From contig CM060193.1 of NCBI GenBank assembly GCA_030549335.1, positions 64,705,646-64,769,645 of the forward strand: a DNA stretch of 64,000 bases, read 5' to 3'. Each line of letters starts with the position of its first letter. Position 1 is the stretch's first letter. This document shows positions 7,420 through 13,400 of the stretch, in pieces. This stretch comes from Pontederia crassipes. Taxonomy: Eukaryota; Streptophyta; Magnoliopsida; Commelinales; Pontederiaceae. The translations under genes were made by a program, and so were the position numbers. The notes beneath the pieces are model-generated. The model was not told the origin of the DNA and did no database searches. It was given only the letters and a program-made list of their open reading frames with translations.

Positions 7420-10400
7420 ATGGTGCAAGTGTTAATCATCAGATTGCTTGTGTACGTCGACCTGATAATTAATTAATCAGGATTCAGTGATGGATTTTCT
7501 GTTGTCTATTCTCTCTCTCTCTCTCAGGAGAGTAATGGAAATGGATTGCTAATCTGCAGGTTGCTGTTAGGGTACGTGTATCCGGCTTTCCTGTGCTTCA
7601 AGGAGATGGAGCCTGAATCCTCCCGGCCTTCCGACGATTCAGAATCAGAATCCAAACCCTCTGATCATCTCCAAAACAAAAAGCTCAGATTCTGGTGCCG
7701 CTACTGGTAAATAGTTTTTTTATACTCATGTATCTTTTAAAATTTTTATGGATTTCTATTTGGATGATCATATTTTTTTATTTTATTAGAATTATATATT
7801 TATAATCGATTGGAAACATAGAAATGCTATAAACACAGTTTAGATGCTAAATTAAATATCATTCAATTGATCGTCAGTGTCTCCATCTAAACAATAAAAT
7901 ATTGTACCGATAAAAAAACTCAACCCAATTATTAAAAGTGAACGTAAATAACTATTGTGCATGATTATTCCTTTTTCACTTAAATTTAATTCTTGTGTTA
8001 ATTATTTTTTGTGTGTTGTATCTTTGTTTTCTTGTTTTATCTAGCAAATTAATTTCAGTCAAAATATAATAAAATAAATAAAAACACATTAAAATAATAC
8101 TCAATATTTATTCTATAAATAAATATATAATATAATTAGCAGAAATAACTAATTTGAACTTAATAATATTTATTAAGTTAAAGAAAATCAAATTTTGTGT
8201 ATATATACATAATATAACACTATACTCACCAATTCACCATAGTATACTATTATTGCATACTATCCATATCAATAGAAAACTTGACCCTTCACCCACAACC
8301 AAGTTTCATCGTATATGTTATATATAATGTACTAAACATCTATTTAGTTTATGTTGCATGTTATGAGCAGAAACGATATGGAAAAATTGAACAATATCAT
8401 AATCCATATGATAGTTTAAAATTTGACAAATCTAGACTAGATGAAGAAAAAAAAATATACAAGCATAATCAACATTGATGATACTAAGATGAGAATAGAG
8501 TAAATAGAGAAGGAGACTAATTGACCAATTTGTTATAATTTTTATGATGAAAGTTCATTTCTTTTTTTATCTTCTCCAACATCATATGTGGCAAAAAAAT
8601 TTAATTTTTAATTATTTAAAAAGGTTGAGAGAGCTCACATTAATTTTATTTTTACCAATTTTGATTGGTCTTGACCATCCATTCCAGTCTAAATGTATTT
8701 CCAATTGTGTTAGTTGGTTACTTTGATCATTAAGAATTTGTTAATTAAAGAAAATATAAAAATATCAATTTTTTATTTAAAACTCACTAGATTAGTACCA
8801 AGTTCACTCCAGTGACATAGCCATTCTGTGAGTAGTAATAAGAAAAAAGAGAGCATAATTTAAAATGTATAAACTAATTGAAAGTACATAGGGAAATCTC
8901 AACTTTCACATTGGTAGCCCAAACGATTTATTAGCCCAAACCATTTATTTGTTTGATAAAAAATTACTAACTTCCAAATTCTCATTAGATACACCTTAAT
9001 TTTTTTTTGGACAAAGGAAGTACTAACTTTCAATTTGACTCTCACATTTAACCTAAGAATATATTTTAAAATAGGATTATTTCTTCAAATCACCCTCTAA
9101 ACTATCGTTATTTTTTTAGATTTAACCCTAAACTATGGACTTTATTTTTTGGTTCCCTAAAATATCACGATTTTTTTTACCGGGCTTGCCCAAGGCTTCG
9201 ACCTCTTCCACCTCCTTGTCGCCGCCCTCTCCGACCTCCTCCTCCTCCCGCAAGCCCTCTGTCGCTTCCACAATCACAACTCCTCCTCTTCGTCCTTCGT
9301 CGATTGCCTCCTCGATGACCTCCTTCGCCTCGCCGGTGCCCATGTCGCCTTTCGCTCTGCAGCCCTAGACCTCCGCCACCTCCTCTCCTCCGCCTTGTCC
9401 GCCCTCCGCCGCCCTTCTCCCAACGTCGCTTGCCTCTCTACCGTCGCCACCTGATTCCGCCGCTGCGCTGAGTGCGATGTCTTCCGAGCCGCGTCGTCTG
9501 CCAGCGACGTCGGCAAGCGGCTCCTTCCAGTCCTCTCCGCCGCCAATGCAGAGGAGGCGGAAGAAAAAGGGGGAGGGGGCTCTCCCCCAACAAGGGGCAC
9601 CGAGGGTCGATCCCTCACAACCTTCGCCGGCCCACCATCGTCTGCCGTGGCCCGAACGAACCCGCCACAACGGTGGTCCGATCGGGGGACCTCGACGCTA
9701 CCGTGATCGCGTGTCTTCCGCATCTAGGGCGCCACAGAGGGATAGAGTGTGCGGTGTGCATCTCCGAGCTCGCCGACGGCGAGCCTGCGCGGTTTCCATG
9801 AACTCATCAAAGAAGAGGGAGAGAGAGAGAGAGGGCGAGCACCTGTCCAGAGAAGAAGAGGAGCTCATTGGAGGAGTTGAGGGCGCCGGCGGTAGCCAGA
9901 TAGGACCCCTACAACCTCTGCGAGGGGCCGCCCCCACGGTCCTCTTCTATCGTGCCGACACCGCCCGGCTCTACCTCGCCTGCGATGCAGATGTGCACAA
10001 GGCCATCACCCTCGCCCGAAAGCACGTTCACGCTCCGATCTAAGACATACAACTGCACACACACCCCCACCCACCCACCCACCCCCGCGTCACGCTCTGC
10101 GCTGACGATGGACTCTTTTTGCTCCGAGTGCGACGCTGACTCCCACTCCGACAGCGGGCACCGACGAATCTCCCCCTGTCGAGGGTTTATCTGGTTCCCC
10201 CTCCACAACTGATGTTTTCTCAACTCCGAGGACATTCGAAAAATCCAAGCTTTTTCAAGTCCTTAGCCTACTTGTGTAGTCCTCTCACCGTGTGGCCGGT
10301 CCTCCTCACACTCCGAGAGTGATGCACGGAGTGGCACAGGGTGACCTCCCTCTTTGCCTATTTCTTTTTATTTTTTTTATTTGACGTTGAAGGGGCATTT

Positions 10401-13400
10401 TGGACTTTCACATATGGAAAAAAATGGAAGATAACGAAAAAGTTGACAGAAGTGGACAGAAGGATCAAACTAAAAAAATCGTGATAGTTTAGGGATCCAA
10501 AAAATGAAGTTCGTAGTTTGGGATTAGATCTGGAAAATCGTGATAATTTAGGTCGGGGTGGTTTGAGGAAATAACCCTTTAAAATATATATAGTAAATTA
10601 TACATCATCAATTAGTTGAATACAAAAAGAATAAATAAATAAATGTGTGTAATTCCTTAAATCCTTACGAATAAATATTTATGATCCTTGGTCATAAATT
10701 TATAACGTCACTATATCTATTTAACATCATTTATGGAAAAATTCATTTCCGAATAACAATTATTAACTACCAGCATAAAAGATAATGCATTATTTTATAT
10801 TTAAATACAAACTAGTCAGCATTCATTTATCCAATGAATTATCCATATTAGACTTAAAATTTGTTTGAAAGAGACATTATGAGGTTAAATGCGAGGAAAT
10901 CTTGAAATTTGACATTTTTTTATCAAGTAGATAAAACTTAAAAATACACTTGCAAAGAGTTGAAATCGTTAATGTCGTGTTTAAATTTGTACATGCAATT
11001 TTTCCATACCAATTCGTCAAGATTATTTTTTTACATTTCCCCTTAATTATCATAATTTTTCATATCTAATCCTAAATTATTTCTTGATTTTCACTTTAAC
11101 TTTCCCACTATTTTTTTATTTATTGAATGACTAAACTATTCTTTCCTCTTTTTTTTAATATTTAAAAGTTTAAATACTATACAATAAATATAAAATTATG
11201 GCAACGCCATGATGGGGCGTCAACCCCCCCCCCCCCCCCCCGATCTCACCAACGAGATCTGGAGCACAATCTCCACGAAACTGCCATCACCAGCGAGGTC
11301 GAGGACCTTGTACGAGGTGCCAAGCATGCGAGAGGCAGCGACGACTGTGGAGATCAAGGCGGCCTATTGGTCCATGGCGAAGTTGTTCCACCCGGACGCT
11401 CGTCGGCGCGCACGAGGTCCCCCTACGTCACCAGCGAGGTCACAGGGGCGACTCCCCCCCCCCCCCCCCCCCCCCCCCCTTTCACTCCGCCTCACCGCGT
11501 AGGAGGGTGATGCAGGGGGTGCGGTCCATTGCCGGTTGCAGGGAGGGGGTGTCGAGATCAAGCTCGCTGGGACTATCGGTGACCTCAAGGGCGCCGATGT
11601 CGCAGGGGGGTGGGCGAGTCGCCGACATTGGCGAGATCGTAGAGGAGGGGGGTGGACAACGGCCCTTCGTTTCACTCCGTGTTGCATCGTCGGCGATGTA
11701 GAGCAAAGGGAGGCTTCTTTTTCAATAATTTTTAATATTTAGTATATATTATTTTAAACTTTTAAATATTAAAAAAAATAAGAGAAGGGTTGTTTAGTCA
11801 TTTAATAAATTAAAATTTTAAAAATAATGGGAAATTTAAACAAAACCAGAAGGTTGGATTAAAGTGAAAATCATGAAATGATTTACAGAGACGCTACGGT
11901 GAATTCGTAGATTAAAATGCGAAAAATCGTGATAATTCAGTAAATAATCTTTTTAAAACTATATGCTATGTTTTTCGAGTATTTTATTGCTTTGAGTAGG
12001 ATTATTTTCATATACCTCTGTTGGATCTGAATTATAATGATTTTTTTATGTGTAACCTGGATTATGAATTTATCACTTCCTTCAATTTTATGGTGATTTT
12101 CGCTTAAGTCCTCCGGTCTAATTAAGTTAATTTTTATTTTTTCTATTTATGAAAATATTAAAATTTTCTTTCATGAGCTATCATTTATTTAATATTTAAT
12201 AAATAATAAAATAAAATTGTATCAATAAATAATATAAAAATTTTAAAAAATCTTTGACATTGTTGACTTGTTAAAATATTTTATTTTTAAAAAAACATTA
12301 AGAAAAAAACATTTCATAGAAGATCATTTTAGTCTTTTTATAAATAAAAAATAGCATATAACAAAAAAGTTAAAAGAATGATTTAAGTGAAAATTATGAT
12401 AAAATTTAGGAATGTTAAGTTCGGATTAGATATTAAAAATTATTATAATTGATGGGACGTTTAAGAAAATAATCTTATGAAAAATATTTTGACTAACAGG
12501 AAAAAATATTTTTTACAGGGTCATCATTGCCATACTGACGGTCATCGACAGGGTTGCCGATGCTTTCATTTCACAGTAATGGCCATATAAACTTTTTTCA
12601 TAATGTCTTTATTTAATTTTTATTTAATTTAATTTAATTTAATTGCTTTGAAGGTCGCCACTGTACGCCGTAGCTAAGTTGGTCTTCGTGGTCTACTTGT
12701 GGCCCCCTGAAGTACGTCTATACGCAGCTAACAAAAATAGAGAGAGAGAGAGAGAGAGAGAGAGAGAGAGAGAGAGAGAGAGAGAGAGAGAGAGAGAGAG
12801 AGAGAGAGAGAGAGAGAGAGAGAGAGAGAGAGAGTTTTTATTATCATAATTAATACTTTTGAACATCTTTTTTTTTTCCTCCTGTTAGTGGAAGAAACAG
12901 CGTACTGATGATGTTTACAACAAATTCCTTGGACCACTCTTCAGACTCTCGGGAGAGATATTGCCGGCGCTGTGGAAAAATTTAGGACCGTTTCTGAAAG
13001 ATTGCAAAGAAAAAGTTTGCCGTACAGTGGAGGAAGCCCTCAAGAAGAGAAGAAAGGTGAATGAATTTAACATTTTCTGAATTTGATTTTTTTGTCACAT
13101 TTAACTTAAAATTATACAATTTATAAATTTCAGGATTAATTTTATAAACCTCTGATTTTTTGCGTATAAATCTGAAGTATGAACTTACCGAACGACGTTC
13201 TTAAATTTTACCGTGATTTTCACTTAAAATTCTTTTGTCAAATTCTATTAATTTTTTTTATTTTTATCTTATTTTTAAAAGAGTAAAATGTCCTCCCATA
13301 ATTTTAAATTTTCATCAATTTGAATGAAACACAAAAAAGACATTTATTTCAAATAGTGAGCATTTTAATCTTTTTTATAAATAGAAAAAATAAAAAATAC

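Follow-up and report, generated by a model that had tools for sequence, protein, structure and literature searches.

How does one transposon come to gather pieces of many genes? Whether it does so by serial capture from the genes themselves, or by the fusion of elements that were already packed, is unsettled. The question is raised by a 64,000-nucleotide stretch of the Pontederia crassipes genome (contig CM060193.1, positions 64,705,646 to 64,769,645 of the forward strand; hereafter, the window), which contains a Mutator-like element (MULE) of the Pack-MULE type with pieces of several host genes in its core. Source genes, simpler elements and chimeric product coexist in this one genome and are comparable base by base, so the order of assembly is testable. 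The comparison suggests that three older Pack-MULEs, all of one terminal inverted repeat (TIR) family, were probably joined into a founder chimera, and that the product was then amplified.

The window element and its source genes

The element is 1504 bp long and occupies window positions 9074–10577 (on contig C11). It has inverted ends and is bordered by a perfect 9 bp target-site duplication, TTTAAAATA, the left copy of which (9065–9073) shows 0/9 mismatches to the right copy (10578–10586); given the composition of the flanks, the chance of a 9-base match is ~3.5e-5 per site pair. The inverted arms at 9112–9177 and 10472–10537 are 85% complementary, and by BLAST the end-to-end match is ~80% across 108–122 columns. 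Between them, GC content in 200-base windows (9200–10200) is 0.61–0.68, while the adjoining flank windows mostly lie at 0.22–0.30. The left TIR (9074–9177, + strand; ~104 bp) is shortened, while the right TIR (10365–10577, − strand; ~213 bp) is of family length, with its outer ~106 bp pairing with the left arm. The left arm is short because ~190 bp of left TIR and the adjoining leader are gone from this copy; the missing segment is kept in seven of nine aligned sister copies (in part in L015, not at all in L016), in which the TIRs are ~213 bp long.

A 20-base TIR-end pattern, allowing at most one mismatch, gave 450 forward and 434 reverse matches genome-wide; a reversed control pattern gave 0 + 0, and the TIR end therefore belongs to a real family. 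The element combines the hallmarks of MULEs (a target duplication in the 9–11 bp range and long TIRs in a multicopy family) with those of Pack-MULEs (host-gene fragments with parental copies elsewhere, and no transposase of its own found). A Pfam scan of ten of its open reading frames (ORFs) revealed no transposase domain; only PF03087 scored above the cut-off, with one RING match below it. The window element is a non-autonomous Mutator-like element of the Pack-MULE type. This identity, the perfect duplication as border and the GC-rich core between matched terminal repeats had all been proposed in an initial annotation made from the sequence, and all three stand.

The core consists of pieces of four host genes (BPS1, ATL RING-H2, double-B-box and PLATZ), all in gene-sense orientation on the + strand. 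The first is a BPS1/DUF241 fragment (9180–9561), the closest parent of which is gene L018 on contig C33 (82.3% over 406 columns). The leucine-rich, DUF241-like segment noted initially in the upstream part of the core (9161–9451) matches PF03087 with E 2e-7 (31.5 bits, against a cut-off of 23.5); this domain is now named BPS1, and was presumably formerly DUF241. There follow spacer 2 (9562–9620, +), ~27 bp of which resemble, at modest scores, subterminal sequence of elements L033 and L031 that carry an ATL piece only, and the ATL RING-H2 fragment (9621–9792), which stops within the RING. The ATL string ending in LDATVIACLPHLGRHRGIECAVCISELADGEPARFP, on which the initial annotation had based its ATL call, lies within ORF 9472–9801 (+). 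As protein, the piece remains below the cut-off of the RING model (E 0.063), but at the DNA level it aligns to the ATL genes L029 (C14; 78.2%, E 5.7e-38) and L030 (C13; 77.7%, E 6.9e-37). Spacer 3 (9793–9853, +) contains a GA-rich run and recurs in B-box elements L039, L041 and L042; unrelated simple repeats match the GA run as well. The double-B-box fragment (9854–10203) has its parents on C8 (L022/L037, 77.7%) and C7 (L025/L038, 76.0%). It looks CONSTANS-like by eye, and a motif search of the fetched stretch revealed no CCT motif in the ~3.3–3.7 kb downstream of the B-box gene. A PLATZ fragment (10204–10270), matching L035 (C8, 91.2%) and L036 (C7, 89.7%), is followed by a tail (10271–10364, +) that adjoins the right TIR and is shared with B-box elements and with certain other members of the family. 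The two unrelated host genes of the initial annotation are thus both present, but the reading of the element as a two-gene chimera is ruled out by the two further sources, B-box and PLATZ.

Relatives and parents were sought in the 1.13 Gb of the same genome. With 40 of 63 candidates scored, at least 49 places match the core, and 40 stretches around core matches were fetched for analysis. They include loci whose stretch contains no family TIR end and in which an open frame runs over the Pfam domain. Such genes were obtained for BPS1 (L018, L023 and L024; PF03087, E 1.5e-28, 6.6e-32 and 3.2e-32), ATL (L029 and L030; PF13639, E 1.5e-14 and 1.1e-14), the double B-box (L022 and L025; PF00643, E 7.4e-14 and 5.4e-14) and PLATZ (L036; PF04640, E 5.5e-32). 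The frame scanned in L035, the C8 partner of L036, had no Pfam match, and neither did a second L036 frame; the PLATZ identity of L035 stems from its DNA match. The search for parental ATL and DUF241 genes that the initial annotation had called for has hence yielded open-frame genes without adjoining family TIRs (BPS1 at 82.3%, ATL at 77.7–78.2%), besides transposon copies, and the outcome that this annotation had named as refuting its reading was not obtained. Instead of two direct captures, passage of the pieces through earlier Pack-MULEs is probable.

The parental genes L023/L024, L029/L030, L022/L025 and L035/L036 are closely similar pairs, located on C13/C14 and C7/C8, a pattern like that left by whole-genome duplication; BPS1 has a further gene copy on C33 (L018).

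Chimeric copies and their simpler relatives

The modules and most junctions recur in 11 chimeric copies, some of which are truncated or rearranged. All 21 places that match the ATL piece were scored; on the analyst's reading of the combined searches, they comprise the 11 chimeric copies, two open-frame genes, seven ATL-only elements with an adjoining family TIR, and one place without a TIR match (L069). The PLATZ/tail part is reached in 10 of the 11 chimeric copies, the exception being the copy at C5:41.87M. When the 11 loci (the window, L009–L017 and L021) were scanned for ends, both ends were found in seven. The target duplication is perfect in the window, L010 and L012; it has one mismatch in L017 and two in L011 and L013, and is unrecognisable in L014 (six mismatches). 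Junctions were compared across ten chimeric rows (L009–L017 and the window), and each of the following is constant in nine: the BPS1 start at L018 position 937–938 (exception L016), the B-box start at 3919 (3923 in L013) and the PLATZ start at 3076 (L014 is without PLATZ). The eleventh copy, L021 on C4, is split: its left half lies on the strand opposite to its right half (1191–1983 and 4958–5732), with ~3 kb between them. It was excluded from the trees and codon counts below.

Simpler elements with the same family TIR ends carry parts of this assembly. These include (i) BPS1-only elements L019, L020 and L043, which extend to gene position 1717 (the chimera ends at ~1340), together with the truncated BPS1-type elements L028, L047 and L048; (ii) ATL-only elements L031, L033, L034, L064, L067 and L068, plus L032 with poorly kept ends, the pieces in which are mostly longer; and (iii) elements with B-box and PLATZ (L027 and L039–L042) or with B-box alone (L026). 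The BPS1 piece of L020, L028 and L048 starts at 937, as in the chimeras, and that of L019 at 940. Four loci that match a module without a recognised TIR pair (L044, L045, L046 and L069) were placed in no class. L026 also contains one family MULE nested in another (342–2403 and 506–1118), each with a perfect 9 bp duplication (TAATAAAAT and TTTATGAAA).

The resemblance continues beyond the gene pieces. Positions 2–683 of chimera L010 align unbroken to BPS1-only element L020 (83.6%), and positions 915–1643 align to L041 (71.1%) through the spacer, tail and right TIR. A leader of ~80 bp lies between the left TIR and BPS1 in the chimeras and BPS1-type elements, and is absent before the BPS1 genes. 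With a query that opens with this leader, gene matches begin only at 79–81, past the leader, while eight of the 11 chimeric copies begin at 1–4. Ten of the 11 end at 466–470; BPS1-only elements and genes continue to 808–824. No separate gene source emerged for the leader: among the 33 candidates, all of which were scored, every row covering it was chimeric or BPS1-type. A search with the tail gave at least 45 rows (40 of 214 candidates scored), including B-box elements and some other family members. The chimera thus has its left end and leader in common with the BPS1-only class, whereas the spacer, the tail and the right end are those of the B-box(/PLATZ) class.

Assembly of the chimera

Chimeras, simple elements and genes were compared at 856 comparable gene-derived sites. 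Derived states common to chimeras and simple elements number 26, against 3.0 expected if the two were independent (observed/expected 11/1.06 for BPS1, 3/0.43 for ATL, 10/1.43 for B-box and 2/0.13 for PLATZ), and 11 of the 26 are neither C>T nor G>A. The ATL tree (92/93) and the B-box/PLATZ tree (82/73) each unite the chimeric copies in a single group. Given the shared bases, the shared leader, spacer and tail, and the unbroken alignments, the BPS1 and B-box/PLATZ parts most likely came via earlier Pack-MULEs. Arrival of the ATL piece through an earlier ATL Pack-MULE is the weakest step, with thinner support.

The fusion that we favour would have proceeded as follows. A BPS1 element would have contributed the left end, leader and BPS1 piece; the inside of an ATL element, the ATL piece; and a B-box/PLATZ element, the spacer, B-box, PLATZ, tail and right end. 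Adjacent elements may have lost their facing ends, or templates may have been switched during gap repair; both routes fit the sequence. The hybrid would have retained a working end on either side, and a putative transposase supplied in trans could therefore have amplified it. Subsequently, the copies would have decayed without visible protein-coding constraint, and the window copy would additionally have lost its ~190 bp on the left side. More generally, Pack-MULEs of one TIR family could be exchangeable cartridges, with chimeras arising mainly by the swapping of ends and insides and not by repeated gene capture; we hold this wider proposal with even confidence.

Several observations weigh against a fusion of packed elements. 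Firstly, beside the 26 shared derived sites there are 23 that are found only in chimeras and 27 only in simple elements; the probability attached to the excess assumes independent sites, which CpG hot spots violate, and unsampled or lost gene copies could have been the carriers of the shared bases. Secondly, the ATL step consists of three shared sites and the 27 bp spacer match, which, compared with 30 shuffles, scores 46 in L011 against a shuffled maximum of 38, and 42 in the window copy against 44. Thirdly, the BPS1 tree leaves chimeras and BPS1-only elements unseparated, and the bootstraps of the ATL and B-box/PLATZ trees had not settled. Finally, no two-element intermediate was seen among the places examined. 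All three module trees are star-like, and their end branches have medians, in changes per site, of 0.093 (BPS1), 0.15 (ATL) and 0.099 (B-box/PLATZ), which fits an old burst of copies, uncalibrated for age.

The strongest competitor is serial direct capture, in which one MULE took the four fragments successively from genes, by template switching during gap repair, and the simple elements arose independently. Gene capture by such elements is biased to sense orientation, and the sense orientation of all four pieces matches that bias. Gap-filling with template switching is also a published model of capture, as described in the part of PMC8277862 available to us. Independent capture is, however, hard to square with derived bases common to the chimera and simple elements, or with the sequence that they share next to the same TIR end (the non-gene leader, spacer 3 and the tail); we consider it unlikely.

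Rather less probable still is descent from a large ancestor, an early Pack-MULE with longer pieces of all four genes, from which simple elements and chimera alike would be deletion products. Such an ancestor would account for both the shared bases and the longer pieces of the simple elements, which exceed those of the chimera (BPS1 to 1717 in L019, L020 and L043, ATL back to 2752, B-box to 3791). Yet it needs three separate deletions, each clearing the other modules and ending near the inner TIR edge, and no larger element was recognised among the places examined.

The last alternative, that a new protein is encoded by the chimera and has been retained, was assessed through the coding state of the copies. 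Differences among copies at first, second and third codon positions, counted on one MAFFT alignment, are 0.186, 0.149 and 0.170 for BPS1, 0.188, 0.204 and 0.206 for ATL, 0.148, 0.189 and 0.227 for B-box, and 0.122, 0.145 and 0.098 for PLATZ; the gene–gene controls of this test are small (e.g., ATL 5/64, 1/65 and 2/63), and its power is limited. Frameshifting indels occur in all ten copies of the ATL module and all ten of the B-box module, while five of ten BPS1 modules are free of them and seven of ten contain a stop. No parental frame stays open over the entire core, and the window element therefore has the appearance of a transposon in decay, not of a new gene. A domesticated gene is very improbable: open frames exist in the window copy, one of them of 224 aa (9369–10043), L017 has a BPS1 module without frameshift or stop, and third-position differences are higher in the B-box module, but BPS1, ATL and PLATZ show no clear third-position excess, and a coding chimera is unsupported by codon position, stops or indels. 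In the BPS1 piece of the window copy, C>T changes are seen at 14 of 61 CpG sites and at 15 of 144 other sites, a skew that would fit methylated repeats.

Transposase, known systems and surroundings

The MURA-type transposase domain PF10551 is abundant in the genome (150 of 2217 candidates scored), with none linked to these TIRs. No autonomous partner was found among the ~100 of 884 TIR ends listed, from which one long TIR pair was fetched. This pair, L070 (C6:26234600–26243500), spans 8.7 kb between family TIRs, has a duplication matching at 8/9 positions and seemingly contains a CACTA-type insertion by eye; it was rejected as the partner, its ORFs being CACTA-like by eye and without a MULE transposase. 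At C8:16698452–16702742, opposed TIR ends recur at intervals of ~2.1 kb, suggestive of a tandem array with a family MULE in it.

Chimeric Pack-MULEs are a known kind, and a sizeable share of rice Pack-MULEs carry fragments of several loci; what is of interest here is that simpler elements survive. In the passages available to us, rice Pack-MULEs are described as non-autonomous, with long TIRs, 9 bp-class duplications, host gene fragments and some chimeric transcripts (PMC13317346, PMC3310237). The window element is like them in its long TIRs, 9 bp duplication and host gene fragments, and unlike them in that four source genes meet in one multicopy element, with part-carrying simpler elements still in the genome. 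The closest stated mechanism that we found, in the portion of PMC13317346 available, is that of hybrid Pack-CACTA elements in Arabidopsis, where neighbouring elements lose their facing ends and the hybrid keeps one end from each. Those elements belong to another superfamily, however, and the hybrid proposed here would join three gene-carrying elements, as judged from sequence only. For animal Pack-TIRs, gap-filling or FoSTeST template switching is described as yielding chimeric TIR elements that are able to amplify; the passages available to us deal with TIR elements that take up outside sequence, and not with the joining of packed elements (PMC8277862). The accessible part of PMC3310237 describes related multiple-TIR MULEs with rearranged ends, among them a Pack-MULE family in tomato that carries a fragment of a zinc-ion-binding gene, and leaves the role of recombination open. 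The nested L026 resembles such multiple-TIR MULEs, whereas the window element has a single TIR pair. Among the titles listed in a literature search, most subscription papers being outside it, none concerned fusion between Pack-MULEs, and we make no claim of absence.

Two further features of the window lie outside the element. About 0.5 kb to its right, a second GC-rich island (~11210–11720, GC up to 0.70) sits between AT-rich inverted arms at 11046–11199 and 11725–11879. No convincing target duplication was found at this island (11046–11879), which is possibly another packed element. A tRNA gene is located at 41532–41604 (Rfam, 57.7 bits).

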